64,000 nt of DNA from Diplonema papillatum (lineage: Eukaryota; Euglenozoa; Diplonemea; Diplonemida; Diplonemidae): positions 310,001 through 374,000 of the forward strand of contig JAPJBO010000044.1 in assembly GCA_030068145.1 (NCBI GenBank). Reading direction: 5' to 3'. Below, piece by piece: positions 5,449-62,145 of this stretch (the stretch's first letter is position 1; every line of letters starts with the position of its first letter). A program made the translations under genes and the position numbers. The notes under the pieces were generated by a model. That model did no database searches. It was not told the origin of the DNA and worked only from the letters and a program-made list of their open reading frames with translations.

Positions 5449-5536
5449 AGGTGAACTACCTCCCGCTGTCGTACGACGAGAACAAGATGCAGAGCCTGTA
5501 CTCGGCTTACGGCCGCGCCGAGAAGCAGTCGACGAA
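5449..5536 (+). pseudogene. Truncated copy of RRM1 coding sequence
   Basis: About 80 bp match the intact gene at 6517-6595, encoding NYLPLSYDENKMQSL and the following G-Y-G-R segment, with a few substitutions. The copy begins abruptly after repeat H and ends at GAGAAG, followed by CAGTCGACGAAGGTCACCCG, the right end of repeat N. It lacks a start codon and the rest of the RRM. It lies about 1.07 kb upstream of the intact copy on the same strand. Confidence 0.85.
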
Positions 5537-6415
5537 GGTCACCCGGAGACTCTAAATATTCGGATTCTCAAACGAACTTTAACTTTAACTAACAGGACCA
5601 TAGGGTTAGCGTCAGTTTCAAACGTGAGGCGAATCCTCACATTTGGAAAAAAAAAAAAAAAAAACCGGAAAAAAAAAAAGGAGCCCGGCACGAGCTGCTG
5701 CTGATGACCAAAAAAAAATCTGGGGAGGAAACTGGTGTCACATCCTCTAAGCACCTAGGAAAACGGAAAATCCAAGAGAAATATGCGTTTTTTTCCCTGG
5801 GGGCCAGCCCCGTGGTGTATGGGTCAAACTGGGTTTAGCAGCTGCTGGTGGGGCCTAGCTAAAGTCTTCATCAGGGGGGGGACAGTCATAAACACGTCAC
5901 CAAGAAACATACCCAAAAGAAAATTGCCGCTGCGCGGGGCCAAGAAACTACCCCCCTCAAAAGTGTATCAAAAAAGAATTTGCCGCTGCGCGGGGCCGGA
6001 ATCATCAATAATAAGCCAAACCCGTTCTTATACAAGACGGGAAGGACGCGATCTGAAACACGGGGGTCCTCGGTGAAGCGCGCCTGGTGCAGTCAGCCGG
6101 GGTCCAACCCACTGCACCGGATGGGCACGGTGCAACAGCGAACAGAGGCTTTTCTTCCGCGCAAACTGCGCTTTTTCTGAAGAGCTCCTAGCCGAACCCC
6201 CGTTTTTTACATTTCTTCGAGACAAAAAGTTCCCAACATAGCTTCCCCACCAGAAAATGGCTATCCCTCACATAATTTTCAGGTTGTACACGGTTTTGAG
6301 GGTCACGCTAATACCCTGAACAGGACGGCGGGGGCGAAAAAAAAAAAAGGAAAATTAAAGCTACATTAGCACGCCGGCCTTGATCGGAAAGAGAGGAAAT
6401 CAGAAGAAGCACAAA

Positions 6416-7262
6416 ATGATGATGCACCACCAGCAGCCGGGGCCGAGGGGCTACGGGGGCGGCGGCGGCGCGGCGCGCACGATGACGAAGGACGAGTGCG
6501 AGCGGAACCTGATCGTGAACTACCTCCCGCTGTCGTACGACGAGAACAAGATGCAGAGCCTGTTCTCGGGCTACGGCCGCGTCGAAAAGGTGAAGCTGAT
6601 CACGGACCCGCAGACGGGCCACAGCAAGTGCTACGGCTTCGTGATGTACGCCGAACCGAGGGATGCGGCGGCAGCAGTCCAAGTGCTCTGCGGGAGGGAC
6701 ATCGAGGGGAAAAAACTCCGAGTGGCGTATGCCCAGCCGTACCAGGTGATGGGAGGCCCGTCACCTTCGATCAACGTGTTCTTCTCCGGCTTCGGTCCCA
6801 CGTACACCGACAGCCAGATCCGGAGCTTGGCGTCGAACTACGGCGAAGTGCTGGAAGCCAAGGTACTTGACCCCCAAAAGCACCCCCGCGGCGTTGCCTT
6901 CGCGCGATTCCGCACCGTCGCGCAGGCGGAGCTCTGCGTCCGCAGCCTCGACAAAACCGAGCTTCCCCTCTCCCTCGGCGGCGGCGGCGGCGGCACCTTC
7001 ACGATGACTGCCCGGTACGCCGAGCGCAAGAGCAACAAGCCCATGCAGCAGCAGCAGCAGCAGCAGCAGCATCAGCAGCACCAGCCGCCTCCGCAGCACT
7101 CCCACCACCACATGCACCACCACCTCCAGCACATGGGCGGCGGCGGTGCGCCCGGCATGCGGCGGCCCCCGATGCACCACAACATGCACAACCCGATGCT
7201 CGGCGGGTTCTCGGGCCACGGCCACATGCAAGGCATGGGCGGCGGCATGGGCATGGGAGGAG
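6416..7262 (+). CDS. RRM protein exon 1 (RRM1, RRM2, Q/H/G linker)
   Basis: Starts MMMHHQQPGPRGYGG. A stretch of eight glutamines begins at residue 211, followed by histidine-, proline- and methionine/glycine-rich sequence of prion-like character. The proposed donor is GGAG|GTCTGC, leaving phase 1. Reading on leads into a mobile-element end, and the open frame there is not conserved sequence. Confidence 0.88.
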
Positions 7263-10200
7263 GTCTGCTTTCCTTGTTTTTTTGGCTGGGATCTTGCTCA
7301 GAGAAGCGACCCAGCATCAGGTTGCATATGTGTCTACTATTGCGGTTTACGGCCAGCAGGCGGGGGGACCCCCTAAAAACCCACAAAATCGCATTTGGGA
7401 CATCATAGAAGGCTCTCCGGAGGCTTCTGAGGGCGTATTTGAACGCAGAATGATGTTTTAGGAAGGGTATGGGGCCTCAGTACCCGTCAGACCCTGGTGA
7501 ACTATGCGGGGATTTTTCCGCCCAAACCCCCCCCCCTTTTGGCATCGTACCTACCGTATTATACCCAATGGGCTCGCCCGTCGAGTCGCGCAGTTTTTAT
7601 TGATCCTCATTTAGGAATCATTACGATGCATTGTTGAACGCTTACGCCCGCCACTGAACCCAGATTCGGCTGTGTTTCCTGTGGGCTACAGCACATTTCA
7701 CCTCCTTTGATTTTTTGCAGCTGGTAGCCTCCTCAAGTATTTCCTACAAAGCAGGTGCTTGTACAAAAAGAAGTTACACAAGCGCCAGCTTGGAAAGAAA
7801 TGCTCGATGAAGCTGCTAGACAAGTAGTCAAAGGGATCCCAAGTGCCGTAAGTAACTACCGAACCACGTGTTGAACGGACGTGAGGTCATGCGGGTCTAC
7901 CCCCACACGACAAGACACAATGAGTGAAAAGAACAACATACGGTGGTGAGCGAAGAACAACACAGATTGTGTTTGTCTTGTTTTTGCCTCTACCCCTATA
8001 TGTTCCTCCCTTTCTTTCGGAGCCAAAAAGCAGCTACGTCAAGTATTTTTCAGGCGCATGCAATGTGTGAGATAACGGAACCGTCCGAGTAGGACCTTCT
8101 GATCATGATCATTTGCGAAGTGGCCGCCTGAAACCACGTTGGGTTCCCACAGCCAATCGGTAGCAACGACGGCGGTCTACAAATGGCAGGAACGTAACGA
8201 ATCAGTGCAAGCTGATGACTTGCGCCAACTGGGCATTCCTTATTCAAGGGGAATAATTGTAATCATCAATCCTCATCACGACGCAAGTTCAAAAGATTTC
8301 TCATCTTCAAGATAGGTAGCCGAAAGGCTCTCAAACACGTTTAATGCGTCAGTGTAGTGCGCGTGCAGCCTAGGACATTTAGGAGCAGTGCGGTCAACGG
8401 AAACGTTTCCACCCCTTACAACCGAAACAGGAGCATCGCTCGGCTACGGCCCCACCAGCGGCGGCGCCGCCGTTTTCGTACACGGATTGGTTGGCAGCTC
8501 CGAGCCGGAAATTTCGCAGAAGGTGTATTCTGTGTTCTCGTGTGTGGGCAAGATCCAAAAGGTACGCGCCTACTCTCGCTTCTCCACTCCCCCCCTTGCT
8601 GCAGCAGTTCTCCTGCCCGAGACAGATTCTCCTGCTCTGGGTAGTCCTCACTTTTTAGATCACCAAAACTGACGTTTGAGGGTTGTCCTCACTTTTTGGA
8701 TTGCTAAAACTGACGTTTGAGGGGAGTTTCTGCTCCCTTCGTATTGTCTGACGAGAACTGCCTACACCCCGGACTTCAATAGCCATATACTAAGTCATTG
8801 CGGGAGTGCCACTCCCACATTGAGGGAGTGAGGCCGACCGCACAAACGACCGCAAAACCACTCCCGCAATCCGGAGTGGGGAGTCCGGGTAGAAGAAGAA
8901 GAAGAAGAAAATAAAAAGGCCGCTCCTGGTCCAGGAACGTGACGGTCAACCACAGCTTGCAAAGCTTGAGTTGGAAGCAGCACACCCTGCGGCTGATCGT
9001 CTCGACGAGCTTGTGTTCAGCGGGAGCGCCAAGCCCCAAGGTGCGCCAAGCCTTGATGCTTTAGTTTGGGAAATCGGTAGCCACTTGACCCGTAGGCCCG
9101 TGGCTCTGCAGCACCGCCGAACACGTGAAGCTTGGCTCCCATGTAGCAGGCTTTCCCTGGTACCTACCGAGTCCGGGTAGAAGAAAGGGAAAAGTAAGAG
9201 CACGTCTTTGTAACTGATATCACTAGGGCAAGGGAAGGAGCTTGTCAAGCCAAAAACAGCTGCCTGGGTGGACACTCAGTGTGTGTCGGTGGCTTAAAAA
9301 GGAGTTCAAGGACCGGAACACGGAGCAGCCTACTCTAGCTTCTCCGCCCCTCCTTGCTATAGCAGTTCTCTTGCCAAGACGGATTCTCCGCTCTGGGTAG
9401 TCCTAGCTGTGTCAAGCCATGAACAGCTGCCTGGGCGGACACTCCGGTTGCACGCTTGTGTGTCGGTGGCTTAAAAAGACTTAAAGGACCGGAACGCGGC
9501 GCAGATAGGACACGGCGCAGATAGGACAAGGCGCAGAGAGGACACGGCGCAGATAGGACAAGGCGCAGATAGGACAAGGCGCAGATAGGACAAGGCGCAG
9601 ATAGGACAAGGCGCAGATAGGACAAGGCGCAGATAGGACAAGGCGCAGAGAGGACACGGCGCCATTCCCGGAGACTTTAAACCCCGGATGCTCGATCGGA
9701 CTTGTCACTTTAACGACACACGAAACCACCCAGAAGAAAAGCCAGGTACCGGGATCTTCCTGACGAGCACGCAACCCGGTGAACATAACCAAGAGTCGAA
9801 GATTAGCGTCGAAACTTCCTGGCTTTTCACGCCGTAGCAGAACGACCACACCCTACCCAATCCCAAACACCCCCTAAACGCGTTAGGGGGCTTCGCAAGG
9901 TTTCACAACGGAGTGAGACATCACCCGAAACGAGCAGCAACCTCCGCTTTTCTCAACCCAACCCCCCTCCTTACCCAAGCCTCTACGGTCAACCGGAGAC
10001 TTTAAAATACCGACCTTCTAATCCACAAATACCTCTAGCAACCCACCCTTCTCCGCCCTACAGGTCGACATTCCGAAGCACCCGACCGGCGAACCGAGAA
10101 ACTACTGTTTTGTTGGTGACCCGAATACCGCAGATACTGAGAAACGCCGTATACTCTGCAAAAAACGCAAATTTCGGACACATTGGACCGAAACGCAACA

Positions 10201-10819
10201 AACCTCGAAAACAATCTTCGACCGAAAAAGTTTGAACCCGGACCTACCGGCCTGAAGGCCGACGCCCGCTCACTCTGCCACCCGCATCCCTTTCGGGAGG
10301 GTTAAAAAAAAGCTTGCTCCGCACTATTATCTAGTCCAAAAACTATACACTTTCGCAACATTAAAAGCCGGGTTGGCTCGAATAGAGGCTATTCACATTG
10401 CATGTTCATAGGACCTCCAGTCTCGAATAACTCTAGCAACACGCCCTTCTCCGCCCTACAGGTCGACATTCCGAAGCACCCGACGGGCGAACCGAGAAAC
10501 TACTGTTTTGTCCACTTCGCCGACATGGCTAGCGCTCAAGCTGCTTTGCAGGTATGAAGCCGACTTGTACCAACATTGCTTTGTGAACTCAGGAAACTAG
10601 AACGAGGGAGAGAAAGAGAAGTATTATTGCGTTGGATAAGACGAGAAAAAGTTCCATCATCGGGCTGGAAAAGAACTCGTAGAAAACGGTCTTTCAAGCG
10701 CGCTTTTATCTCTAAAACGGTCTTTGCCGACACCCCCTGAACTTAAACACCCATACACACAGTTCGACAGCGCAGCGTACGAGGGCCGCAGTCTGCAAGT
10801 CCGTTACAAGCAGTTCTGA
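6416..10819 (+). CDS. ELAV/Hu-like RNA-binding protein with three RRMs (4 exons)
   Basis: Likely a cytoplasmic or nuclear mRNA-binding regulator. Exons 6416-7262, 8431-8561, 10462-10551 and 10763-10819 join in phases 1, 0 and 0 to give 374 residues. RRM1 (about 31-107) has RNP2 LIVNYL and RNP1 KCYGFVMY. RRM2 (about 118-203) has VFFSGF and RGVAFARF. A 90-residue Q/H/M/G-rich linker follows. RRM3 (about 292-374) is split over three exons, with VFVHGL in exon 2 and NYCFVHF in exon 3, and ends VRYKQF-stop. Two RRMs, a long linker and a C-terminal RRM is the ELAV layout. The first of three tandem ATGs is taken as start. Introns consist of repeats. Fragments of exons 1 and 3 are duplicated upstream of the real exons. 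Target RNAs cannot be inferred. Confidence 0.88.
7278..7547 (+). mobile_element. Right end of the foldback element, solo copy
   Basis: About 270 bp match 29225-29494 and, inverted, 27890-28150, ending in CCCTTTTGGCATCG. It begins 16 bp after the exon 1 donor, so it occupies the first part of the intron. Only one terminus is present. Confidence 0.75.
7632..7745 (-). mobile_element. MITE family A, partial inverted copy
   Basis: Contains the reverse complement of the GGTAAATCTGGGTTTAGTGG core and ends GCCTCCTCAAGTATTT. The other terminus is missing. It lies in intron 1 of the RRM gene. Confidence 0.65.
7798..8048 (+). mobile_element. MITE family G
   Basis: A 251-bp element with termini AAATGCTCGATGAAGCT and AGCAGCTACGTCAAGTATTT, which are imperfect inverse repeats. 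It shares its interior with 21772-22025 and, inverted, 62378-62646. The terminal AAATRCTCGA resembles that of MITE A, so the two families may use related transposases. Confidence 0.7.
8056..8160 (+). repeat. Repeat C copy in RRM intron 1
   Basis: Shares GCATGCAATGTGTGAG, AGGACCTTCTGATCATGATC and CTGAAACCACG with copies at 14879-15000, 40079-40200, 53555-53640 and 53760-53873. The usual 3' end of the family, GTGCGGTCAACGRAA, is displaced here to 8389-8404, just before the exon 2 acceptor. Confidence 0.65.
8431..8561 (+). CDS. RRM protein exon 2 (first half of RRM3)
   Basis: Encodes GYGPTSGGAAVFVHGLVGSS and continues to CVGKIQK, that is beta1, alpha1 and beta2 of an RRM. The acceptor ACCGAAACAG restores phase after the phase-1 donor of exon 1, and the donor is AAG|GTACGC in phase 0. 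An acceptor at 8388 in the same phase is possible and would add 14 residues derived from repeat C. Confidence 0.78.
8898..9168. mobile_element. Retroposon D with 17-bp target duplication
   Basis: GAGTCCGGGTAGAAGAA occurs at 8881-8897 and again at 9169-9185, flanking a 270-bp sequence shared with 60096-60432. One end is GAA- and A-rich. Long target duplications plus an A-rich end are typical of retroposition. No coding capacity was recognised. It lies in RRM intron 2. Confidence 0.72.
9497..9662. repeat. 16-bp minisatellite
   Basis: About ten copies of GGCGCAGATAGGACAA with small variants (AGAGAGG, ACACGG). Because 16 is not a multiple of three, it produces long overlapping minus-strand frames that are not genes. 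Confidence 0.95.
10032..10113 (+). pseudogene. Truncated decoy copy of RRM exon 3 with its acceptor
   Basis: The copy includes the intron end CTCTAGCAACCCACC, the acceptor CCGCCCTACAG and the first 50 bp of exon 3 (VDIPKHPTGEPRNYCF), then diverges at TTGGTGACCC. It matches 10431-10512 and lies 398 bp upstream of the real exon. The right end of repeat N (GGTCAACCGGAGACTTTAAA) lies 25 bp before the duplicated block. If used, its acceptor would give an aberrant transcript. Confidence 0.88.
10462..10551 (+). CDS. RRM protein exon 3 (RNP1 of RRM3)
   Basis: Thirty codons in phase 0/0, encoding VDIPKHPTGEPRNYCFVHF and then ADMASAQAALQ. NYCFVHF is the RNP1 octamer region. Acceptor CCGCCCTACAG, donor CAG|GTATGA. 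Confidence 0.88.
10763..10819 (+). CDS. RRM protein exon 4 (C-terminus)
   Basis: Encodes FDSAAYEGRSLQVRYKQF and a TGA stop, supplying the last loop and beta4 of RRM3. Acceptor ATACACACAG. Intron 3 is only 211 bp. Confidence 0.85.
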   Translation, partial: FDSAAYEGRSLQVRYKQF

Positions 10820-10979: not shown

Positions 10980-11096
<117 letters not shown>

Positions 11097-12339: not shown

Positions 12340-13145
12340 CCACAATCAGGGCGAGTGCCCTGGGTTTTTTAACTGATTGCTCAGACACGGTTGTAGGGGC
12401 CTTCTCCCCGTGACGGATTCGCCTGTGCTCTAGTAGCACGGGTGGTCCTGGCTGTGACGAGCTACGAACAGCCGCCTGACAAACCAGACTCACACCGCAG
12501 TCCTGTCTGCAGACACTCAGGTTCCACGCTGATGATGGTCCGCCTTATGTGTCCGTGGCTTAAAGGACCGAAACACGGCGCGGACGGGACCAGTGCGGTG
12601 TTGAGCACATACCCATTCCAAGCACGTTCTTGCAATCCCCCCATTCCAGTAGGGTACTTCGCGTAACGCGACTTGCTGCCCTCAGCACGCAGGATTACTT
12701 CCTCGCACTCTTTTTCCTTTTGGTACTTCAACCATTGGTGCTGCACACGGCAACCCCATGTCCACTGTGCTCTGCGGAGTTTACTTCGCAGATTGCCACC
12801 GTAAAAAGAAGACAAGTCAGTGCTGCCTAGCGAGTCGCAGTCACAATCAGGGCGAGTGCCCTGAGTTTTTTAACTGATTGCTCAGACACGGTTGTAGGGG
12901 CCTTCTCCCCGTGACGGATTCGCCTGTGCTCTAGTAGCACGGGTGGTCCTGGCTGTGACGAGCTACGAACAGCCGCCTGACAAACCAGACTCACACCGCA
13001 GTCCTGTCTGCAGACACTCAGGTTCCACGCTGATGATGGTCCGCCTTATGTGTCCGTGGCTTAAAGGACCGAAACACGGCGCGGACGGGACCAGTGCGGT
13101 GTTGAGCCACACGTTCCCAATTCCAAGCACGTTCTTGCACCCCCC
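12340..13145 (+). repeat. Two tandem copies of repeat B
   Basis: Nearly identical blocks at about 12340-12640 and 12840-13140 share CTGTGACGAGCTACGAACAG, GTCTGCAGACACTCAGG and GTGCGGTGTTGAGC, ending in TTCTTGCA plus a C-run. Other copies: 30738-31145, about 32130-32260 and 63590-63770. Diverged ones lie at 16670-16945, 38940-39060, 61750-61890 and 62940-63040. The C-rich 3' end is notable because one copy abuts a splice acceptor at 61896. Confidence 0.8.
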
Positions 13146-14574
13146 CCCCCCCCTCCTGCAGGGCCTGTGTGCAGCAGGGTGGTGACCGCTCTAAGGTGGT
13201 TTCCTCAGCAGCGACCAAGAAAAAGAAACTTTTTTTTTGGCCCAAATCCCCCCAAAAAAGCACTCGAAAAAAAAAGATTTTGACCCACTTTTTCCACCAT
13301 TTCACCTTAGAGAATTTAGCTAAGGTGGGTCCCACAGTAGGTCCACAGTGGGTTGCACCAGGAGGGGGGGGGGGGGTACCCACCCCCACCCAGGGTTAGC
13401 AACTTCGTTTTGGGTCTCAGGCTTAGTATCAGCACTGCCCCCCCCCCCCCCTAAGTCACGGGACCAGTGCGGTGTTGAGCACATACCCATTCCTAGCACG
13501 TTCTTGCAACCCCCCCCCTAAGTCAATGCGGCAGTGAAAAAGTGCGGGAGTGCCTGCCGGAGTGCCACTCCCGCATTGGGGGGGTCCCACTCCCTCATTG
13601 AGGGAGTGAGGCCGACCGCACAAACGACCGCAAAACCACTCCCGCAATCCAGAGTGGGAGTCCGGGGTGCAACTAAGATTTTCCCCCCGCGTCACACGAT
13701 CGCAAGCAGCATCCGTAGCAGCCCGAGCCAGCTTGAGTGTCGGGTGTACTCCTTTGTTGCAACCACCCTACGACTACGAACCGTACTCAGCCGGAGGCTC
13801 CAGCGCCTGATGGCGACAAAGCCGGTCCCTCTGTCGAAGGACAACTGCAGATAACAAGGGTTGCTCTGCTCGCCCAACCTAATGAAGGCTCGACTACCAA
13901 CAGCGACTTCCACAAGCGGATGCGTTTGAGTCGCGAGCTAAGGGGAGGGGGGGACTTCCAAGCCCCCGAAGAGGCGTGCCCGTACACCGGTCATGTCGTA
14001 GTATCGGCCAGGTCGTGGTCGCTTAAACGTGAAACCCCAAGATCTCCACCCCCAGCGTCGCCCCCCCCCCCCCACCTCCAATTGATGATTTTGTTCCTTT
14101 TTCTCGGTTTCTCTTCTTTTTGCTTTTTAGAGAACACCTTCACGAGCGTGCCTGCCGAATCGTCGGCGTCACCCACGCCCCGCCATTCTGCTTCCTTCGC
14201 ACGACTCGACACCGTGAATACACACCTTAGAGCCCATTATCATCTCCCCTCCCAACAGTGAATAAACCAGGTTCTTAATTCACCTCGTTTTCTTCTCTCT
14301 CTGCAAGGAAAAGGAAAAAAGAAAAGCGCTTTTTTTCTCTCTTTTTCAGCCCCCCCTGCGTAGAGACACTACGCAGAGAAAATCGCAGGCCAGCCTTCCC
14401 CCACTGGCAGCTGAGGCTTCCAGTTTTTTCGTTTCTTGTGCAAAAAGAGATTCTTTAGAGAGGGGGGGCGTTGCAGTCATAGCAGAGCGAGATGAGGTTC
14501 CTCGTGCTCCCGCGTCCACCCTTGGCGCGGCTGCTTTTTTTTTTTTTTTTTTGTATAAGCACCTGCTTTGTAGG

Positions 14575-19930: not shown

Positions 19931-19975
19931 TAGCAGAGGGGTGGACCGGCTCACGAGAGGCGCGCGGCGGTTCGG

Positions 19976-21404
19976 ATGCACGCCGAGCTGAGCACGCTGC
20001 AGACGCCGAGCGGGTTTCTGGTCGGCGCCGGCGACGATGCCCCGCAGCCGGGCTCGCCGAAGGAGCGGGCGCGGATGAAGTACTCGGTGCCCGCCGCGCG
20101 GCTCATGAGCACCCCCGACGTCTGGGAAGGCGTCGAAAAGCGCCGCCTCTCCTCCTCCTTCGCGCAGCCCGCCGGCGGCGTCGAGGACATCGAAAACTCA
20201 CCTGCCGCCGCCCCCTCCCCACCCGCCCGCCACCGCAACCGGTCCGTCGTCAGACTCGCAGACCCCCCGTGCGAGACACCCCCGTTGCCGGCTGCCGCCG
20301 GGGTTGGCACCCGGCCCGCCACCGCGGCGCTGCTGACCATGTGCGCGCTGCAGTTCGCTTCGTGCATCTTCCTCCCGTTCATCAAGCTCACCGTCGACGC
20401 CAGCCCTTCCGAAGGCGCCGCTGCGCCGCCCCCCGACGCACCATACCCCGTCGGAACCGAGCTGCACTGTAGCGGCTTCGTGTGCTACCCGGGGGGATCC
20501 GGGCTGCTGACCCACGTCCCCAACGCTGCCGTCGGCGCCGCGTGTGTCATCGCCGCAGTTTCGTCGGTCGTCGGCCTCGTCGGCGTGCTGCTGCGTATCG
20601 GGATGTTCCTCGGGCAGAAGGGAAAGAGCCTCGGCGTGATGTGGCTGGTGTTTGCCGCCGCCTGCTCGCTGATCTCGGGCGTCGCCGCCGTCTTCGCTTC
20701 GGTGGCCGACGAGCGGGCTGGCGGCAGCGCGGGGTCTGTCGTGCTGTGGTACCCGTTTATCGTGCTCGCTCCCTTGTCTTGCTCCGTCCTGATGAACCGG
20801 GGGGGAAAAAACGCTGTCCCATCGTTTTCGTACGAGTTGGGCGCGGTCGGCGACGAAAACGGCACGACGCAGGTGCTAAGCGGGTCGGCCGCGATGCTGC
20901 GCAACGTGAGCACCGGGAGCCAAGCGAACATCCACCACCTCCAGTCGACCACACACGGCGGGGGCGCGATGAACCTGACGCCGCACACGCCGCCGAAGCC
21001 CAGCGGCGGTGCCGGCGGGCAGCATCAGAACGCGGCCGCGCAGAGCCACATCACGTCGCTCGTGTCGACCCTCCGCACCGCGCAGCCGCCGCTGCCGAGA
21101 CCGAACGCTTCGAAGGTGCTCCCGCCGTCGGTCTCGCACCAGCACCAGGCAAAGCAGGCGGGCCCCCCGCCGCTGCCGAAGAACCAGGCCAAATCGGAGT
21201 CTGGCGGGCACCCATCAACCACCACGGGCGACGAAACCCTGAACCCATTCGAAGGCGGGTCGCGCTCGTCGAGCGTCATCTACTCGGAGACGCACACCGA
21301 CGATGGGTTGCTGCTTAATGGCACGCATACGACGCTGCACAAGACGATCTTCACCCCCAGCGAGAAGCAGTCCGACCGCTCGGACGGGTCATCGAAGACC
21401 GAGA

Positions 21405-21436
<32 letters not shown>

Positions 21437-21568
21437 ATTCCCCGCCACAGCTCGCAGTACGGTTCCCCGTACCGTAAGGCAATCGCGACGCCGCCCGGGT
21501 CGCCGCTGGGCGACAACTCGTCCCCGCGGGGCCACGTCAGCAAGCAGCCGTTCCTGAAGCGATCCGAG
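19976..21568 (+). CDS. Kinase-like gene exon 1 (four transmembrane helices, Pro/Ser tail)
   Basis: Encodes 531 residues from ATG, MHAELSTLQTPSG. The topology, with a cysteine-bearing first loop (ELHCSGFVCYPGG), recalls tetraspan proteins such as amastins or claudins, but no signature is complete. The tail contains PPKPSGG and PPLPK motifs and a ten-glycine run. Donor GAG|GTGCGG at 21569. If unspliced the frame stops after seven more codons. Confidence 0.82.
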
Positions 21569-24500
21569 GTGCGGCCTGTTCTTTTTCCGTAGTAACAATG
21601 CTTTGTAAACACGAAAGAGAACGCTGGCAGCGTGTTTGGGAGAAGATTAGCCTGACGATCATATTCACTCACAATCAATCACTAACAGGCTAATAACAGG
21701 CTGATCCTCCCCCGGCACGTACAAACAAACACACGCCTGTTCTTTTTTACATACAGCGCCAGCTTGAAAGAAATGCTCGACGATGCTACCTGACAAAGAA
21801 CAGAAGGGATCCCAAGTGCTGTAACTGTTGAACGGACGTGAGGTCATGCGGGTCTTCCCCTAAACGACAAATCACACAGACACAACAGGTCAAAGTCCTG
21901 AGTGAGAAAACAACACACGGTGGTGTAAGCGAAGAACAAATCGATTGTGTTTGCATTGTATTTTGCCCCTCTACCTCTATATTTCCTCCCTTCCATTCGG
22001 AGTCGAAGCAGCTACGTCGAGTATTCTTGTACCAACAATGCCTTGTAAACACGAAAGAGAACGCTGGCAGCGTGTTTGGGAGAAGATTGGCCTAACAATC
22101 ATATTCACTCACTATCATTTTGTTTGTACGTGCCGGGGGGAGGATTGGCCTGCTGGTGAAAGATCCGGCACGTACAACAAACACACGCCTATCCTTTTTT
22201 AGTCGTGTAAGACGTAGTCTTAGAAGATTGATCCTAGAGATATAATGCGGCCTCTCTCCCTCACACGACCGCTCACGCTTTTGCTGCGTGTCGACCATGC
22301 ATTATTGGTAGTACTAAGACGCCCTAAACATGCACCCGCCGTCTTTACGGCGGATGCAATGTTCCTGAGTTCTTGATTATCTCGACTTGACTGCTTGTGC
22401 GCACAAGCAAATGACAGCGTGAAAGGTCATACCACTTGGGTTCTGTAATAACAATTGATTGCAAACTCGAATAAGAACGCCGGCACCGTGTTTCGGAGGA
22501 TAATAGCCCACGATCAAGTTCGCACACCGAACTTCTCCGGGTACGTACAAACAAATGAACTTATTCAAACGTACCTTTGCCATTGACACTCTCAACAACC
22601 GCAGTCGATGCCACTCGGTCTCGGTGGCGACAGCAAAGAAGTGAAGGAAGCGCGTGCCATCGCGCGGGTACCTTCGATGAAGAGAAGAGCCAGCAAGCGA
22701 CCGTCTACAGTCCGTTTCAAGGTATGGGAAATTTTCCGACAGCGGCTTCGAGCACGCAAACCCCCCCGCCGTACACTTCCCTTTTTACCTCTTTCTATTT
22801 TGCATCCCTTTCCTAGCCAACACCTCCCTCGACGAAGACTTGATGCTAGCAGCAGCCATGCATGAGAGGCAGTGCGTAACTCCTCCGCGAGGCTACCCTG
22901 CTTCGGCGGGAGCTTTTCGAGCGGTGCCACGTCTGGGGAGAAGCCGTACCGCTGTGATGAGCCCACACCAGACAGAAGTACCTCTGGGTATAGTGACGGG
23001 AGTAAGCGCTCGACAAAAAAACGACCCACCTTCGTAGTTGTTCCTCATCCCCCTCTAGCCTCCGCCGAAATATGCAACAAAGGCAGCCCGACGAGTATTT
23101 TCCCCCACGTTTTGGTTACGGATCCCAGGTTGCCCGCATTGTCTCGCTCATCGAAGGTTGCACGCCTCTTTCTCTCGTGCACAGTTGCACACGCACCACA
23201 CAGGCCGAGAGCATTGCGAACGGAGGCCCGCAGAGCCCGTGCAGCACGGCTTCGCAGTCGCCGCGGCAAAAGAGGTCGATGAGTCTACAGGACCTCGCTG
23301 ACACCGACGGGGATAACGACATAGACGCGAACCCCGTTGACGAGATGGAAGAGCTGCAAGCCGCCAGCGAAACGGACACCCACTCACAGTCCGGCCGGAG
23401 CCAGGACCCCCGCTCCCCGGAGCACGGGCTCTGCATCGGAGATAGCCTCGAAGGCCCGGTGTTCATCAACGGCATCGGCGACAGCGAGGGGGTGCCCGTA
23501 AACCGGGTCCAATCCCTCGTCTCGCCGAAGACGGTCACCATCGTCGGCGGGCCAACTGCGTTTCCCAGCTCGAAAGACCTGAGTTTAGGTCCCCTGGCCA
23601 TCGAGACCAACTCATTCGAGCCGGACATCTCGCCCGAAGGCGTCATGTTCCTCACCACGCCGAACGCGAAGTATGAAATTTGCAAGCCGCTGTCCGCGAA
23701 CCCCCTGAAGCAGAAGATCATCCGAGACGTCGCCACCGACGGCAAGTTCGCGCTGAAGGTGTACAACAAGAGCATACAGACCTGCATGAACGCGCACAGG
23801 TTCAGGTTCTCCGGACCGGCCGGCGCGGCCAGTGCGATGGCGCGCATCCGGCAGGAAGTTGCCATCTTGAAGCGGCTCAGGCACAAGCACCTAATCGAGC
23901 TCCTCGAAGTCGTAGACGATCCGGAACACGACCGTTTGGCCCTCGTCGTTGAGCTCGCTGCGAAGCCTACTGGCGACGTCGACCCGCAGACGGGCCTTCT
24001 TACCACCCGCACCCTAAGTGAGAACTTCATCCGGCACTACTTCGTCGGCATCGTGTCGGCGCTGAGGTACCTGCACAAGTGCAAGATCGCGCAAACCGAC
24101 ATCCGGCCGGAAAACGTCCTCCTCTTCTCGGACGGCACCGCGAAGCTCTCCGGCTTCGGCGTCACGCACCTCTTCTCCTGCATAGCTGGCGACTCTGTCC
24201 CGCGTATCGATTGCTCGTCTCCGGCCTACTTCCCTCCCGAGGTATTGTGTTTTTTAAAAACGGTAAAAAGTATTGGTAGCTGTTTTGGTGCGCCGGCGTA
24301 TGCCGGGTTGTATCCACCGCCCACGCTTTGCGGCTGGACGGAAGACCGAGTGGATGTTGGGCAAGCTGGAAACCGTAACGGCTGGAACGATGCCGTACCT
24401 GAGTATCCGCACGACGTATCTTTTGTTCAGTGGGAGTTGCGATTCTCCGTCAAGATGCTAGCCGCCGCCATAGGGCGGGCTATTGCCGAAAGGAGGAGAG

Positions 24501-30737: not shown

Positions 30738-31145
30738 TTTTGGTACTTCAACCATTGGTGCTGCACACGGCAACCCCATGTCCACTGTGCTCTGCGGAGT
30801 TTACTTCGCAGATTGCCACCGTAAAAAGAAGACGAGTCAGTGCTGCCTAGCGAGTCGCAGTCACAATCAGGGCGAGTGCCCTGAGTTCTTTATCTGATTG
30901 CTCAGACACGGTTGTAGGGGCCTTCTTCCCGTGACGGATTCGCCTGTGCTCTAGTAGCACGGGTGGTCCTGGCTGTGACGAGCTACGAACAGCCGCCTGA
31001 AAAACCAGACTCACACCGCAGTCCTGTCTGCAGACACTCAGGTTCCGCGCTGATGATGGTCCGCCTTATGTATCCGTGGCTTAAGTGGCCGAAACACGGC
31101 GCAGACGGGACCAGTGCGGTGTTGAGCACATATTGCGTTCTTGCA
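30738..31145 (+). repeat. Repeat B, long copy
   Basis: Begins TTTTGGTACTTCAACCATTG, as does 12719, and ends TTCTTGCAATCCCCCC. It is about 97% identical by eye to 12719-13140. Located about 100 bp after the kinase-like gene stop codon. Confidence 0.8.
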
Positions 31146-43590: not shown

Positions 43591-44003
43591 TTGTTCAGGT
43601 AGACGGTCGGCTGGTCCAAGCCTGCTACGTGGTGCCAACATGCTGCATGTTAGTTATAGGACTACACAACTCACCGTCTTCGCCGAGGCGTCGTTGAACT
43701 GCATGAAGGCTGACCTCCTCGCAGTCAACGACATCCGGGGCGCAGTCGTCTTTCGTCTTGAGCAGCCCAGCCTTTTTTTGGAGTTTTTTGTTGGTGCGCG
43801 CCGGTTGATTGTTCTCCCACCGAATTGAATTGACCCTGTGTCACTTTCAGGTTAGGAAGTCTGAAACGAAAAGAATCAACCACCAAACCACGCTGCCTGC
43901 GTCTTGTTAGCCTGCGCAATACATTGAAGGGCAACCCGCAGGACTTTTGGTACTAAAAAAGTTTGTCGGAACCTGGCTGAGCTCTGAGAGACCACCATAT
44001 GCA

Positions 44004-44440
44004 TGAAAATGGGACACCTCGTGCCTCACCGGCCCTGCCTCTTCCCCGCGTAGTTCCCGAAGAAAAAGACAACGAACCGAGCCGCAGACGCAACAAAGCA
44101 AAAGGAAAAGGGGCAAACGCGATGTCGAAGGGCCACGTTCTCGTGACGGGGGGGCTGCGGCTACATCGGGTCGCACACGTCGACGGTGCTCGAAAGCGGG
44201 TACGACGTGACGGTCGTCGACAACCTCGTGAACAGCAACAAGAAGAGCCTCGACCGAGTGCGGAAGATCACCGGCGTCGATTTGGAGGAGCGGCTGCGGT
44301 TCGTCGAGCTCGACTGCTGCGACGTGCAGAGGTCCGGGAGCTCTTCGAGGCGGCCAAGGCCCGCCCGTTCTCGGCGGTCATGGAAAAGTGACACCTCGTG
44401 CCTCACCGGCCTGCCTCTTCCGCGTAGCTCACGAAAAAAT
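44004..44440 (+). pseudogene. 5' truncated copy of the GALE gene flanked by direct repeats
   Basis: Positions 44074-44381 copy the leader (GAGCCGCAGACGCAACA) and about 260 bp of coding sequence from ATG 44122. An extra G in the G-run at the nucleotide-binding loop shifts the frame, and three bases (CTG) and one more base near 44330 are missing. The copy stops after TCGGCGGTCAT. About 55 bp with GACACCTCGTGCCTCACCGG flank it on both sides (44004-44061 and 44382-44440). It lies 583 bp upstream of the intact gene, same strand. Confidence 0.9.
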
Positions 44441-44704
44441 CCGGATCTCTCTAAGTGAACTTGCACTCTGAAAAGTGCCCAAGACTAAATTTCAAAGCGA
44501 ATTTCTTCTTGGTGTCGGTCGCAACAGTTACAAACTTGGTTAGCCGTAGTTAACGTGTGTATTTATGCGATGCGTATATCCCACACTACCCGACTCCCAG
44601 CAGGATGATCTACCGGTAACTTTGAAACCCCGAACCTCTGAACCACAATAAACGCTAAAAGAGCCGCAGACGCAACAGAAAGCAAAGGAAAAGGGGGAAA
44701 CGCG

Positions 44705-45757
44705 ATGTCGAAGGGCCACGTTCTCGTGACGGGGGGCTGCGGCTACATCGGGTCGCACACGTCGACCGTGCTGCTCGAAAGCGGGTACGACGTGACGGTC
44801 GTCGACAACCTCGTGAACAGCAACAAGAAGAGCCTCGACCGAGTGCGGAAGATCACCGGCGTCGATTCGGAGGAGCGGCTGCGGTTCGTCGAGCTCGACT
44901 GCTGCGACGTGCAGAAGGTCCGGGAGCTCTTCGAGGCGGCCAAGGCCCGCCCGTTCTCGGCGGTCATCCACTTCGCCGCACTCAAGGCGGTCGGCGAGAG
45001 CACCCGCATCCCCCTGCAGTACTACGAGAAGAACATCGGCAGCACCCTGACCTTGCTCAAGGTCATGCAGGAGTACGGGTGCAAGACGTTCATTTTCTCG
45101 TCATCTGCGACTGTGTACGGTTCAGCACCAGTCCCGTACACAGAGTCGAGCCAAACGGGCGTCGGCGTGTCGAGCGCTTACGGCAGGACGAAGCACATGA
45201 TCGAAGAAATTTTGAAAGACCACGCCGCGTCCCCGGACGGGAAGGATTGGAGCATCTGCCTCCTCCGGTATTTCAACCCCTGCGGTGCACACCCGACGGG
45301 GCTCATCGGGGAAGACCCTGAGGGGCCTCCGAACAACCTGATGCCGTATGTCGTGCAGGTTGCGGTCGGCCGGCGGGAAAAGCTGACCGTGTTCGGCACG
45401 GACTTCGACACCAAAGACGGGTCTGGAGTGCGGGACTACATCCACGTAGTTGACTTGGCCGAAGGACACCTCTCCGCGATGCAGTATCTCCACAAGAACG
45501 CGGCCGGCCTCTTCACCTTCAACCTGGGGAGCGGGGTGGGCACAAGCGTGCTGGAGATGATCGCGGCGATGGAAAAAGCGTCCGGGAAAAAAATCCCGTA
45601 CATCGTGGGCCCGCGGAGGGACGGCGACCTGCCGGCGTTCTGGGCGGATCCGAAGAAGGCGAACGAGGCTCTCGGGTGGAAGGTGACGCGCGGACTCGAC
45701 GACATGTGCCGCGACCTGTGGAAGTGGCAGTCCGAGAACCCGAACGGTTACGCCTGA
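44705..45757 (+). CDS. GALE: UDP-glucose 4-epimerase, single exon
   Basis: Interconverts UDP-galactose and UDP-glucose with bound NAD+, the last step of the Leloir pathway and a source of UDP-galactose for glycoconjugates; probably cytosolic (or glycosomal if the organism has glycosomes). The 350 residues match the usual length of 338-350. Visible features: Rossmann loop GGCGYIGSH (residues 10-18), Asp34 at the end of beta2, FSSSATVYG (131-139) with the catalytic serine, the YGRTK motif (Tyr159, Lys163), and CLLRYFNPCGAHPTGLIGEDP for substrate binding. No targeting signal is visible at the C-terminus, which ends NPNGYA. The start is fixed by alignment of the family N-terminus. The leader begins right after a repeat N-like end (ACTTTGAAACCCCGAACCTC). 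Confidence 0.97.
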   Translation: MSKGHVLVTGGCGYIGSHTSTVLLESGYDVTVVDNLVNSNKKSLDRVRKITGVDSEERLRFVELDCCDVQKVRELFEAAKARPFSAVIHFAALKAVGESTRIPLQYYEKNIGSTLTLLKVMQEYGCKTFIFSSSATVYGSAPVPYTESSQTGVGVSSAYGRTKHMIEEILKDHAASPDGKDWSICLLRYFNPCGAHPTGLIGEDPEGPPNNLMPYVVQVAVGRREKLTVFGTDFDTKDGSGVRDYIHVVDLAEGHLSAMQYLHKNAAGLFTFNLGSGVGTSVLEMIAAMEKASGKKIPYIVGPRRDGDLPAFWADPKKANEALGWKVTRGLDDMCRDLWKWQSENPNGYA

Positions 45758-50420: not shown

Positions 50421-50492
50421 AACCGAATGGTCAGCCGGAGACCCAAAAACACCGAACCTCTAAACCACAATAAACGCTACAAAACGAAGCGC

Positions 50493-50535
50493 CTCTCTTT
50501 TTGGCTTCTTTTTTGGCGTGAAAGTCAACTGTAAT
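50493..50535 (+). pseudogene. Upstream copy of the leader of the MBD-like gene
   Basis: Forty-three bases (CTCTTTTTGGC... to GCGTGAAAGTCAACTGTAAT) repeat those at 50706-50745, which end 27 bp before the start codon at 50772. The right end of repeat N with the same tail as before GALE (CCACAATAAACGCTA) lies immediately upstream. Confidence 0.75.
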
Positions 50536-50771
50536 TTCAGCAGATTTTAAGGCAGCCCTTACAAAGACCAGCCACAGTCAAAGCCGCGTGGATGAGGGCT
50601 TTTGCTATTAATCATCGTGTTTCAAAAACCCCCGATTGCACGTAACCTGGAAGCACCCAGAGCGTGTCCGTGGTACAAAGGTGCAGTTGCCCGAATCCAT
50701 CCGGCTGTCTTTTTGGCCTCTTTTGGCGTGAAAGTCAACTGTAATGCAGGCTTGAAAAGGTACGAACAACT

Positions 50772-54143: not shown

Positions 54144-54214
54144 GACCCGTCGAAGACAGCTGGGGTTTTCCAAGAAGACGAGCACGACTGGGAGCCATCC
54201 TCTCTGCTTTGTTT

Positions 54215-56458: not shown

Positions 56459-56956
56459 ATGCACCGCCTGTCTCGGTACGCGGCTGCTAGAGCATTCACG
56501 AGCCTTCGGTGGTGCCAGGTTTCGGCCTCGGGCGCCGGTGCTGTTGCCGCTGACGGTGTTCGGCAACCGCGGTTTGGGGAGCTCCGCGTGGTTCCCCTGA
56601 ACAGCCACCCGAAAGGAGCGAAAAAAGTGGCCGAGGAGTGCGTTTTGCGGACGAGGCTGGGCATCCAATTGACGGACGGCACCGTGATACGAGAGGAAAA
56701 ACCGTTCATTTTCTACAAAGGGGCGCGGCAGTGCCTGGTCGGCCTTGAGCAAGCAGTGGAACTGCTACACGTGGGCCAACGCGCACGTGTCGAGATTCCA
56801 GCCCACCTTGCGTACGGAGAACAGGGTGCTGAGGGCATCCCACCTGACGCGGATGTGGTTTTGACCGTCGAGATTATTTCTCAAGCTTCGGCGAACAAAG
56901 CCTTCACAACAAGTTTGATACACAACAAATCAAAACGCTATCGACAAGGGAACTGA
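56459..56956 (+). CDS. FKBP-type peptidyl-prolyl isomerase, probably mitochondrial
   Basis: Predicted to catalyse cis-trans isomerisation of Xaa-Pro bonds. The first Met gives 165 residues. Residues 1-25 (MHRLSRYAAARAFTSLRWCQ...) are Arg-rich, Ala-rich and lack acidic residues, as in mitochondrial presequences. The FKBP core spans about 65-141: TDGTVI, PFIFYKGARQCLVGLEQAV, VGQRARVEIPAHLAYGEQGA and IPPDADVVLTVEII. The LAYG and IPP signatures are intact. The Trp at the floor of the pocket (usually in VIxGW) is Leu96 and the usual FDSS is absent, so activity or FK506 binding may be reduced. A 24-residue basic C-terminal tail is extra. The leader starts after a repeat N right end and CTCAG. Confidence 0.92.
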   Translation: MHRLSRYAAARAFTSLRWCQVSASGAGAVAADGVRQPRFGELRVVPLNSHPKGAKKVAEECVLRTRLGIQLTDGTVIREEKPFIFYKGARQCLVGLEQAVELLHVGQRARVEIPAHLAYGEQGAEGIPPDADVVLTVEIISQASANKAFTTSLIHNKSKRYRQGN

Positions 56957-59599
56957 GCGACCTTAACGGATTTGTTTTTCAAGTCGCTCCAACTGACCGC
57001 CGAATCCGCAAGACACAGGTCTCCTCTGATAAGCAGGGCCGCTCACTGGGAGCCCCGGTGCTGAAGGCCGGCTTCAACGGTCAGCTGCCAATGCGAAGCG
57101 ACGCCCATTTCTTGGGGGGTGCAAATAAATGTGATATCCAGCGGCATTAGACGAGAAGGACCGACCCCCTCACTTTGTGAAGGTTACGTAACTGCTTTTT
57201 CCATCTGTCGTGAGAGCTGCGACTCAGCCATTCCATTCCGGAGCAACAGCACGAGCCCACAAAGAGTGCCCAACGGGGACGCATTTCATGCGGGTTCCTC
57301 ATGAAGGAATTCACAAGAGTTGGAGGATGAGGTCCGCAGCCCATGTATCGGGGATGATCTTGACGAAAAGGTTTGCCAAACGGAGACTCAACGGTCAAAC
57401 AGTCTAAACGGGTGGCCAACAAGGGGCACATATTTAGCTCGGGTAGGGCAAGGACCGTAGCCCATGTACGGGGTGATCTCACTAGAAGGTTTGCTCCATA
57501 ATTCCCGTGCAGAAGTCGTGTTCGACGAAACAGCCTAAAACGTGTGTCCAACAGGGGCACATGTTGCTCGGGAAGAATTCACAAGAATGGAGGGCAAGGG
57601 CCGTAGCCCATGTACGGGGTGATCTCACTAGAAGGTTTGCTCCATAATTCCCGTGCAGAAGTCGTGTTCGACGAAACAGTCTAAAACGTGTGTCCAACAG
57701 GGGCACATGTTGCTCGGGAAGAATTCACAAGAATGGAGGGCAAAGACCGTAGCCCATGTACGGGGTGATCTCACTAGAAGGTTTGCTCCATAATTCCCGT
57801 GCAGAAGTCGTGTTCGACGAAACAGCCTAAAACGTGTGTCCAACAGGGGCACATGTTGCTCGGGAAGAATTCACAAGAATGGAGGGCAAGGGCCGTAGCC
57901 CATGTACGGGGTGATCTCACTAGAAGGTTTGCTCCATAATTCCCGTGCAGAAGTCGTGTTCGACGAAACAGTCTAAAACGTGTGTCCAACAGGGGCACAT
58001 GTTGCTCGGGAAGAATTCACAAGAATGGAGGGCAAAGACCGTAGCCCATGTACGGGGTGATCTCACTAGAAGGTTTGCTCCATAATTCCCGTGCAGAAGT
58101 CGTGTTCGACGAAACAGCCTAAAACGTGTGTCCAACAGGGACACATGTTGCTCGGGAAGAATTCACAAGAATGGAGGGCAAGGGCCGTAGCCCATGTACG
58201 GGGTGATCTCACTAGAAGGTTTGCTCCATAATTCCCGTGCAGAAGTCGTGTTCGACGAAACAGTCTAAAACGTGTGTCCAACAGGGGCACATGTTGCTCG
58301 GGAAGAATTCACAAGAATGGAGGGCAAGGGCCGTAGCCCATGTACAGGCGGTGATCTTACTAGACTGTTCGCCCAACGGAGGCTCCACTATTTCGTTCCC
58401 GTGCAGCAGTATGTTCATTGAAACGCTCTGAAAACGGTGCATCCAACGACTTTTTGTTCGAGTCCCTTCAGGAAGAAACCACAGAATGGGTAAGGAACGT
58501 AGCCCACCTGCCGTGATCTTTCGTCTGAATACAATCATGCACTGGAGGGCTGGCGGTTGCGCTTCGTCCTACCCTCAGTCTTCGGCTCTCTGCTTGCTTC
58601 CCGTTTGCGAATAAGTACGAAGTACTGCGATACTTCCAAGGTAAGCAGCTCAGGTTACTGCACCCAGTCACACCGGATCATATTGCTTTGCTGCGTTGGC
58701 CAGGAGTTTGCGCAGAGAAATGCCGACGTAACAATTAACCGACGACACGTGTATCGTGCTGTGATGCACCGGAGTGTGGGGATAGCTTAGAACGAAGAAT
58801 GCTCGGATCGATACTACCTGAAAATGACACAGGGCAAATACAAGCGGAAAGACGATCAAACCGGCACGCACAAACAAATCGGCAAGACACCCTACTACAC
58901 GAAGAGAGTGCAGCTTTCCAGGATTGTTAACCCTGTCTCCAAGGCTATGACGGTGATAGACAGCAATTAGGCAATGATGGAGCTTCCTGGGAAGAGGGGG
59001 GGTCCGGCTTACTATGTGATGTGTCCTGTTGCTGTGAACTGGGCTGTGCACTGTATATATTCACAGCACAAAATATGCTAGGTCCAACAGAGGGGTCGAC
59101 CCAGTTTCTCATATCCGATCGATTTCCACACCAAAGAAACACACGAAAAGTATAAAGGGGAACGAAGACGCAGCAGAAAAGGCGGACGACCTACCTCCCC
59201 CATGGCGACCATGGTGCTTGCTCCACGACGAGCAGAAGAATAAGACTGGTTAAGAACGGTCTTGAAGTACGGGTTACCAGGTCCCCCGCGGCACGTCGGG
59301 CTCTTACTCTTCTGCGTCGCCCGTAGGTCCCCAAAAGGGGGCTGCGCCGCGGCTCTTTCTTTTTTCTTTCCGAATAAGCGACCTGCTTCGGCCCGGTGTG
59401 GAGGGGAAGAGGCGCATTCTTTTGCGGCTCGGCGCATCCGGCGTCGTTGCAGGTACGCACATATATAAATCAACGCGCGGTTTGCGTGGGACAGCGTCGG
59501 AGACGCTGGGGTGGGGGGGAGGGCGGAGCTGTTTGTTCTGCTTTCCTTCTTCTTTTTCCCTCCCTTGTTCGTCCTGGGCGTGGCTAGCGTGCGCGCACG
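56957..59599. other. Spacer with satellite array and GC-rich leader
   Basis: The satellite occupies 57235-58525. After it, 58750-58890 is a diverged repeat F ending GGCACGCACAAACAAATCGG. The stretch 59240-59599 is GC-rich and free of recognised repeats, and probably carries the promoter or leader of the WD40-like gene. Confidence 0.6.
57235..58525. repeat. 146-bp satellite with 292-bp dimeric higher-order pattern
   Basis: About six near-identical units (57477-58340) contain ACTAGAAGGTTTGCTCCATA and GGGCACATGTTGCTCGGGAA. Degenerate units flank both sides. Two diagnostic positions alternate between neighbours: AACAGCCTAA against AACAGTCTAA, and GCAAGGGCCGTAG against GCAAAGACCGTAG. Units therefore amplified as 292-bp dimers. 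Minus-strand frames of 74 codons repeat at the same spacing and are by-products. Confidence 0.92.
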
Positions 59600-60063
59600 A
59601 TGAACGACGGGCCCGGGAAGAAGCTATGGCACATGACGCTGAGCCGCCAGCCGCGGCAGCAGCAGCCGGAGGCGTTCGGGTTCATTGCGCTGGACAGGCC
59701 GCACCTGCGGCTGGCGACCTTCAACCTGCGGTCGGTGTATATCGTGGACCTCGACAAGAAGACCCGCCAAGTGTTCAAGACGGCGCAGACCCTGCTGCCG
59801 GCGGCCCGCACCTTCACGAGCCTCGCCTGGTGCAAGAGCGAGTCAGCGCAGCACCAGCTGGCCGCGGTGCTGGGCACCGACGTGCTCGTCATCGACACCA
59901 TCACTCTCGACGTCGTCGCGCACATTCCCACGCCGTGCGGCCGATCCTCCCACCCAGCTCCCCTCATCGAATGGGGCGGCACCCCTTGCTACCTCATCAC
60001 CGCCGGCTCCCAGGGAACCGGCAAGCTGGGGCAGATACGCTTGTGGGACGTCGTGGACAGCGG
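59600..60063 (+). CDS. WD40-like gene exon 1
   Basis: Starts MNDGPGKKLWHMTLSRQPRQ and ends IRLWDVVDS plus two bases. Donor GG|GTATGC. Confidence 0.85.
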
Positions 60064-62145
60064 GTATGCAACTTATTACACAACCCATCAAGGAAGAAGA
60101 AGAAGAAGTAAAAAAAAAAACGTAACACAAAATCCATCCACAAATAACGCTACAAAAAAAAGGCCGCTCCTGGTCCAGGAACATGACGGGTCAACCTCAG
60201 CTTGCAAAGCTTGAGTCGGAGGCAGCACAGTGCCACAACCCCGTCCGCTCTGCCCTGCCGCTGGCCGTCTCGACGAGCTTGTGTTCAGCGCGAGCGCCAA
60301 GCCCCAAGGTGCGCCAAGCCTTGATGCTTTAGTTTGGGAAATCGGTAGCCACTTGACCCGTAGGCCCGTGGCTCTGCAGTACCGCCGAACACGTGAAGCT
60401 TGGTTCCCGTGTAGCAGGCTTTCCCTGGTACCACCCATCAAGGAAAAAAATGGAACCAAAAAAGGACAGAAGAAGATTCATTGTTGTCAGTCGAATGACA
60501 ACGAATGAGACGGATCTGATTATCCCCCGGCGTGTCGAAGGGTGCCGGGGACGAGAGCAGCAGCTCAACCCGCCCTCGCAACAAAAAGCAAGGAAATAAG
60601 CTCTTGATCGAGCGACAGCGGGACGCCCCCCGGCAACCGTTTTTCTGAGCTAAAAGTCTATCTCGTAAAACGAGTAGGACGAGGAAGGTTTTGCGCATCA
60701 CGTTACTGCCACGACGGCACTATGGCAGTACGATCGAACAGACAGTCGAGGGTAGGCATCAGACTTGTCTCTGAAGAAGTCTCTACTGCGTGAGCAGTTC
60801 AACTCGTCGGAACGATTCATCGGAGTTTGCAGGAGTCGACGCATTGCTTTAGGAGTCGAAACTCAAGTTCATCATGGAATAGTACGCCAGATGACGAGGA
60901 AGAAAGTGCGAGACCAAGGAGGAGGAAGGCGCCAGTACAAACATTCACTAAAAACCTGGACGGACGAGTTGGTAAAGAAGTTGGGAGTAGCAGAGGTTTG
61001 TCGGCTTGTTCAAGAGTCGCCACAAGCCCGCAGCACAGGAGCGCGGGCGAGGGCATCCTGCGGGTGAAGCCACAGCTGGGAAGCGCAAGCCTGCAGCTAG
61101 TGTTCGAGGCGCGCCGCAAGCATACCAGTTGCGGAAGACAGCGGCAAGCAAGTAGAAAAAAGCGCTTGTTGTGATGAGCAGCAAAAGCTTTAGGCTACGC
61201 AGCCAGCCTCAGAGTCCATCACGGTGTCCGATGCACCGCAGACTTCACCTCCAAAAGTGTCACTTTAGGTAGGATCTCAAAGAGGCCTCCACCGCCAACA
61301 CCACCCAACCACAACAGGGCGGTACCTGTGCGGGACGCCATCACGGTGTCCGATGCACCGCAGGCGATTGCGGTGCACCCGTCGCAGCCGTTCCTCGCTG
61401 TGTTCTACCAGTCGGTCGTGCAGGTGTGGTCGGTGCAGTCCTTCGAAAAGGAGCTGGAGCGCGACTTTCTGTCGCAGGTCCGCTGCATCGCGTGGTGCGC
61501 GTCACGCCCCGCCCACCTCCTCGTTCTCTACCACAGCGACGGCAAAGACCGCTGCCTCAATGCTCCCGTGCTGGCGGAGATGGACGTCAGGTGTGTGCAC
61601 ACGAGCATAGGTCTCTTTCAGTACCCCGGTTGTAAATTTTGTTAGGTTGGGCGCTGCCCTACCTGGTTGTCCTGGTATGACAACAATTCTTGGATCTTAG
61701 ACGATGAATATTTCGCGACTAATAGAGAACCGCAACGTAGCGTACACTATGGAGTCCAGCCTAGCACCGCTTGTCTGTGGGTCCGCCTCATGTGCCTGTG
61801 CTTAAAAGACCGAGACAGGGTGCAGATGGGACCAGTGCAGTGTCGAGCACGTAACTATTCCAACCATGTCTTGCACCCCCCACGCACCACACACAGGAAT
61901 GACACGTGCGTCGACGAGGTTACGACTCTCGGCCGGCATGCCCTGAGCGGGTTCGCGACGGTGAAGCTGCACACGCTGCCGCTGCCCTTCGCTCCGAAGC
62001 TGCTCCTGGTCGCTTTTTCGTCCAACCGGTGCGAGCAGGCGTTCATCCGCACCCACGCCTCCGACGGCGCCACGCAGCCGCCTGAGTACGCGCCGCTTCC
62101 GCCTTTCGTCCCGTCTCAGGGCGTCCGCGCAGTTGCTGTCCGCCG
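59600..62145 (+). CDS. WD40-like protein, first three exons, gene continues beyond window
   Basis: Exons 59600-60063, 61318-61590 and 61897-62145 join in phase 2 each time to give 328 residues and an open end (donor CG|GTATTT). Strand pairs typical of WD blades are visible: ESAQHQLAAVLGTDVLVIDT, GKLGQIRLWDVVDS, QPFLAVFYQSVVQVWSVQSF and QVRCIAWCASRPAHLLVLYH, then an exon ending VPSQGVRAVAVRR. Blades are irregular and resemble the N-terminal half of a large scaffold of the WDR11 or trafficking-protein type, but I cannot assign an orthologue. No acceptor with convincing coding sequence was found before 64000. Confidence 0.78.
60096..60432. mobile_element. Retroposon D with 13-bp target duplication
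   Basis: ACCCATCAAGGAA is present at 60083-60095 and 60433-60445, flanking sequence homologous to 8898-9168. GAA and A-rich sequence lies at the left end. It is inserted 20 bp after the exon 1 donor of the WD40-like gene. A third, partial copy is at about 46094-46225. Confidence 0.78.
61216..61241 (+). pseudogene. 26-bp copy of WD40-like exon 2 sequence
   Basis: CCATCACGGTGTCCGATGCA followed by CCGCAG is an exact copy of 61338-61363 in exon 2. It lies 122 bp upstream in intron 1, followed by unrelated sequence. Confidence 0.85.
61318..61590 (+). CDS. WD40-like gene exon 2
   Basis: Acceptor AACCACAACAG completes Gly after exon 1. Encodes AVPVRDAITVSDAPQAIAVH through NAPVLAEMDV plus two bases. 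Donor CAG|GTGTGT. Confidence 0.85.
61897..62145 (+). CDS. WD40-like gene exon 3
   Basis: Acceptor CACCACACACAG. Begins NDTCVDEVTTLGRHALSGFA and ends SQGVRAVAVR plus two bases. The C-rich tract before the acceptor is the 3' end of a diverged repeat B. Confidence 0.82.

Follow-up and report, generated by a model that had tools for sequence, protein, structure and literature searches.

Several genes in a 64,000-nucleotide stretch of the Diplonema papillatum genome (contig JAPJBO010000044.1, positions 310,001 to 374,000, the whole of which is called the window) are accompanied by truncated copies of their own exons or leaders. The preferred explanation, to which a probability of about 0.72 was assigned, is that the copies arose by direct duplication of local sequence, in several cases on either side of an inserted mobile element, in a genome that is rich in retroelements and duplications. 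A sequence-only reading of the window had described seven such copies, and comparison of the window with itself confirmed every one of them: they were incomplete, direct and local, ranged from 26 to about 305 bp, and were 89-100% identical to the intact piece, with E <= 1.3e-5 in a self-BLAST. Dispersed element sequence was located between or beside the copies at five of the six copied segments. The affected genes had been given as five of six; our own count was five of about seven, the open reading frame (ORF) at 19937-21586 and the FKBP gene (56459-56950) having no exon copy in the self-comparison. An assembly artefact looks unlikely as the source of the copies, because PacBio support has been published for one repeat-bounded array in Diplonema papillatum (PMC10161547).

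Structure of the copied segments

The best-resolved case was exon 3 of the RRM gene, where the following features were found.

9740-10037, + strand, 3' end of a family A retroelement, abutting the upstream RRM exon 3 copy (left edge approximate)
10028-10113, + strand, left 86-bp direct repeat with intron end, acceptor and exon 3 head (self-comparison)
10114-10425, + strand, 5'-truncated retroelement insertion of 312 bp (dispersed matches)
10426-10511, + strand, right 86-bp direct repeat, running on into intact RRM exon 3 (self-comparison)

The two repeats were 95% identical over 86 bp and a dispersed element filled the space between them exactly. In DNA searches of the whole genome, which were run on an assembly of 271 Mb in 2910 contigs, the 312-bp spacer matched from base 1-2 to base 311-312 in 32 of 39 other strong places (40 of 2288 candidates scored), while three other copies of the family extended further 5' in sequence that they shared with one another, followed by runs of A. 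The edges of the element and the longer 5' copies elsewhere indicate that the copy in the window is 5'-truncated exactly at the left repeat, an arrangement found for RRM exon 3 only. The segment has the form expected of a retroelement inserted by target priming, with a target-site duplication of 86 bp.

A similar arrangement was found in the leader of a second gene.

50490-50535, + strand, left direct repeat in the gene leader, 46 bp (vs 50702-50745, 89%)
50549-50701, + strand, 153-bp dispersed element between the leader repeats (dispersed matches)
50702-50745, + strand, right copy of the leader repeat, preceding the ATG at 50772 (self-comparison)

All 39 other strong places matching the 166-base spacer covered it from base 14-16 to base 164-166 (40 of 912 candidates scored). 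Both the RRM exon 3 and the leader copies may have resulted from insertion of an element with a long target-site duplication; we infer the spacing of the nicks and the order of events.

The copies of kinase exon 5 formed a more complex array.

27475-27748, + strand, first copy, family B end and kinase exon 5 head (self-comparison)
27885-29494, no strand assigned, 1.6-kb insertion with long inverted arms (27883-28450 and 28924-29502) that splits the kinase array
29495-29728, + strand, second copy, family B end and kinase exon 5 head (self-comparison)
29729-29910, + strand, spacer, mostly family B retroelement sequence (element matches)
29911-30634, + strand, family B end and intact kinase exon 5 (self-comparison, Pfam)

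The array consists of three units, each a family B end joined to the exon head, with the 1.6-kb inverted-arm insertion separating units 1 and 2 and family B sequence separating units 2 and 3. Both copies were 93-94% identical to the intact unit at about 29863-30146, and the piece was found in three places genome-wide, all at this locus (3 of 3 candidates scored). The arrangement would be accounted for by tandem duplication combined with element insertions. The arms of the 1.6-kb insertion, about 570 bp long, are inverted local repeats outside the coding segments (27883-28450 vs 28924-29502), and part of one arm recurs at 7280-7551.

In the case of GALE, both the copy and the sequence preceding it were repeated.

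44002-44065, + strand, u, the sequence preceding GALE, which recurs at 44379-44439 (u') after the truncated copy
44079-44381, + strand, truncated, frameshifted copy of the GALE leader and first codons (vs 44661-44967, 96%)
44477-44660, + strand, 184-bp dispersed element (family C) that runs exactly up to the intact GALE copy
44661-45757, + strand, intact GALE leader and gene (Epimerase, 2.7e-49)

The GALE piece was present in two places genome-wide, both local. The truncated copy is followed by u' (about 60 bp), a family B end, the 184-bp element and the intact leader, and the end of the copy has the motif CATG in common with u. The boundaries of the element were consistent elsewhere: among 39 other strong places, 38 began at base 93-98 of the 279-base query and all 39 ended at base 276 or 279 (40 of 1614 candidates scored). 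The order u, copy, u' means that a tandem step is needed, and the GALE copy probably arose by tandem duplication combined with element insertions.

The copied piece of RRM exon 1 was internal to the exon and was enclosed by two repeats.

5300-5454, + strand, 3' part of dispersed repeat X, overlapping the RRM exon 1 copy by about 4 bp at its end (left end provisional)
5451-5525, + strand, 75-bp copy of an internal RRM exon 1 piece (vs 6515-6589, 93%)
5526-5588, + strand, 5'-truncated 3' end of retroelement family B (family B matches)

This piece was found in two places genome-wide, both local (40 of 1859 candidates scored). The 5400-5454 part of repeat X was matched at 100% in 38 of the places listed and at 98% in one, and one of the other loci described below (L047) matched 5300-5450 at 93%. 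The piece may be a small fragment trapped between the ends of two repeats, for which template jumping is tentatively proposed. Template jumping by long interspersed nuclear elements (LINEs) is known to give chimeric insertions with other RNAs; the window resembles these in that a gene piece is joined 5' of a truncated element, but differs in that the piece derives from a gene about 1 kb away.

The smallest copy was that of a WD40 exon.

61216-61241, + strand, 26-bp copy of the start of WD40 exon 2 (vs 61338-61363, 100%)

Orientation and position of copies across the genome

The sequence-only reading had stated that every copy lies 5' of the intact one and had taken this regular polarity to suggest a mechanism. 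The copy search comprised 80 coding segments scoring at least 20 in the window and 50 other loci (L003-L052), RRM exon 3 and the leader not being among the segments scored. It returned 53 copy rows, all direct and none inverted, of which 32 were upstream and 21 downstream; the rows are non-independent, and a pair of copies can be entered from both sides. Counted by gene, and read by eye, the other loci had three upstream copies (L025 and two genes of L050) vs four downstream (L038, L046, L047 and one of the same two L050 genes), with none inverted. L018 (downstream) and L039 (upstream), which are repeats in low-complexity coding sequence, and the LINE-like L052 were left out of this count; counting L018 and L039 as well gave four upstream and five downstream. 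A clear counterexample to an upstream rule is L047, in which the end of a long exon, its stop and the 3' flank were repeated 62 bp downstream in a frameshifted form that was 95% alike.

The claim stood for the window, where six of six copied segments were upstream (two-sided binomial p 0.03), and failed as a rule, with three of seven elsewhere (p 1.0), nine of 13 pooled (p 0.27) and downstream copies already published. There may be a modest 5' excess. What could be retained of the proposed mechanism is that the copying is non-random, direct and partly tied to reverse transcription, as the element sequence at five of six segments suggests; the regular upstream polarity could not. The Pfam rows for kinase and epimerase were uninformative as a genome-wide test of polarity, as they listed best domains only and the known GALE copy was absent from them.

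Local direct repeats (at least 40 bp, at least 80%, within 3 kb) covered 12.7% of the coding and 12.6% of the non-coding bases in 19 random 10-kb loci, and inverted repeats covered 0% and 2.0%, respectively. The nineteen were the 20 random loci less L052, which was left out for its Exo_endo_phos (endonuclease) ORF; with L052 included the direct coverage was 24.8% of coding and 14.5% of non-coding bases, and in the window it was 9.6% and 10.5%. Direct repeats were present in 20 of the 20 random loci and inverted repeats in 12. The equal coverage of coding and non-coding bases indicates that exons are no special target, and exon-specific copying was rejected on this ground. The restriction to direct copies is real for coding sequence and is part of a genome-wide habit.

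Origin of the copies

The appearance of a truncated upstream copy can be attributed to a duplicated stretch that includes an exon's 5' edge. In that case the downstream copy would remain joined to the gene and look intact, while the upstream one would be cut off. Conversely, a stretch extending over the 3' edge into the intron or 3' flank would leave the upstream copy intact and the downstream one cut off. Both forms were seen in this genome.

Several observations weigh against local duplication around inserted elements as a complete account, 1) the leader element begins 13 bp short of the left repeat edge, 2) RRM exon 1 is without the target-site-duplication arrangement, 3) GALE requires tandem duplication in addition, 4) a search that skips common words found no second genomic place for 61200-61400, which holds the 96-bp WD40 spacer, so that the WD40 copy is unexplained, 5) none of three other copies of the 312-bp family had a long repeat within flanks of about 120 bp each, their true 5' ends lying further out, and 6) a long flanking repeat scoring at least 14 was found at 3 of 50 family A or B ends, with 0 in swapped controls. 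No long target-site duplication was seen at most of the family A and B ends tested; either such duplications are the less frequent outcome, or the present cases are special or were picked out by the reader's eye.

It is rather unlikely that all of the copies are simple tandem duplications, produced by replication slippage or by microhomology-mediated template switching, and that elements entered the junctions later, although in single cases such a course is compatible with duplication around inserted elements. By eye, L025 has a tandem duplication of an intron end and exon head with about 17 similar bases at both breakpoints and no insert; at L046, L047 and L050 the copies overlap or the spacer is 62 bp; and the GALE order requires a tandem step, with CATG shared by the copy end and u. 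For RRM exon 3, however, this order of events would require an element to have entered precisely at the junction and its 5' truncation to fall at that very point. Chimeric complementary DNA would form if the enzyme of a retroelement switched from the element's RNA to that of a local gene, so that gene pieces were left in the insertion. This origin would agree with the position of the RRM exon 1 piece, which has the 3' end of repeat X on its left and a 5'-truncated family B end on its right, and with the GALE insert of u', family B end and C element. It is improbable as a general explanation, fitting two of the six segments only, and DNA-level patching would be expected to give the same picture, with repeat X occurring on both strands elsewhere.

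A polar process that copies exon starts upstream of their own gene, through re-primed reverse transcription or template switching in repair, is consistent with the six upstream segments of the window and with the 5' repeats reported in 'many' instances (PMC10161547). It is nevertheless highly improbable in view of the downstream copies at L038, L046, L047 and L050, the pooled count given above and the duplication of non-coding DNA as often as coding. Upstream polarity as a rule was rejected in view of the downstream copies among the 50 other loci.

In Diplonema papillatum, dozens of genes have been described in which part of the 5' untranslated region and coding sequence is repeated alongside, and in other genes the 3' end of an exon is repeated downstream (Valach et al. 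2023, PMC10161547). The window copies resemble these repeat-bounded genes in being adjacent, direct and partial, with both sides of genes affected in the genome, but they are mostly spaced and not head-to-tail, and the accessible part of that article gives no link to element insertions. No paper linking Diplonema repeats to element insertions was found in the article texts accessible, supplements being outside the scope. Target-site duplications of LINEs peak at 3-15 bp in the various clades, and those longer than 20 bp are a recognised class, 'L-TSD', with many in one HeLa data set (PMC4245944). The direct repeats around a 5'-truncated element resemble the L-TSD class, whereas the 46 and 86 bp of the clear cases in the window are unlike the clade peaks. 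What had appeared to be a new copying mechanism thus becomes a known habit of the Diplonema papillatum genome with a testable cause, and gene models in this organism can contain decoy exon starts. If the long-duplication interpretation were true genome-wide, Diplonema would be well suited to studying what determines how far apart the two cuts are made when a retroelement inserts.

Other repeats and gene content of the window

Members of families A and B share a fixed 3' end and are truncated on the 5' side to varying extents. The Exo_endo_phos ORF is within the LINE-like stretch L052. At 21594-22117, just past an ORF, direct repeats of 84 bp enclose a dispersed element of about 280 bp, possibly as another long target duplication, without coding sequence. 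In L019, a 37-bp direct repeat (1262-1298 and about 2059-2096) flanks about 760 bp containing a family B element.

Retroelement ends with GGTCANCCGGAGACTTTAAA were located at 9668, 27560, 29532 and 34217 in the window and in 2440 exact places genome-wide. With up to 2 mismatches allowed, such ends were in the same orientation as the nearest coding segment in all 20 cases that could be tested; a further 31 were in loci without a coding segment. Among the first 100 places listed, 73 of 84 pairs of neighbours on a contig were on the same strand, against a mean of 43 after shuffling. The usual bias of intronic LINEs is opposite to this sense-only bias. Another dispersed family (12547-12641, 13048-13155, 13458-13517, 31045-31132, 61780-61883 and 63682-63780) gave 28 same and 0 opposite orientation pairs relative to genes, the pairs being non-independent; several other families were mixed. 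A doubtful extension is that retroelements of Diplonema are inserted in the direction in which the gene cluster is co-transcribed and that, near exon starts, their unusually long and variable target duplications might carry splice acceptors and exon heads, seeding spare exon copies in introns and leaders.

Scoring by codon usage, with the window itself as training set, gave 17 coding segments in the window, all of them on the + strand. Pfam supported RRM, kinase, Epimerase (GALE) and FKBP, and there was a MIOS-type WD40 match below cut-off; the label 'MBD-like' given to one exon was not upheld, as that exon had no Pfam match. The remaining exons concerned were as follows.

6416-7261, + strand, RRM gene exon 1 (RRM_1 in two stretches, Pfam)
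61328-61591, + strand, WD40 gene exon 2 (coding score)

As in the published genome, there were GT-AG introns and scattered pieces of 28S ribosomal RNA, of which about 3600 have been reported for Diplonema papillatum (PMC10161547); a eukaryotic 28S fragment was found at 2908-3036 on the minus strand. The window also has a tandem array of 146-bp units (6.3 copies) at 57445-58364. A 24-base word of the diplonemid spliced leader occurred in 602 places genome-wide (321 + 281), and its reversed control in 0.

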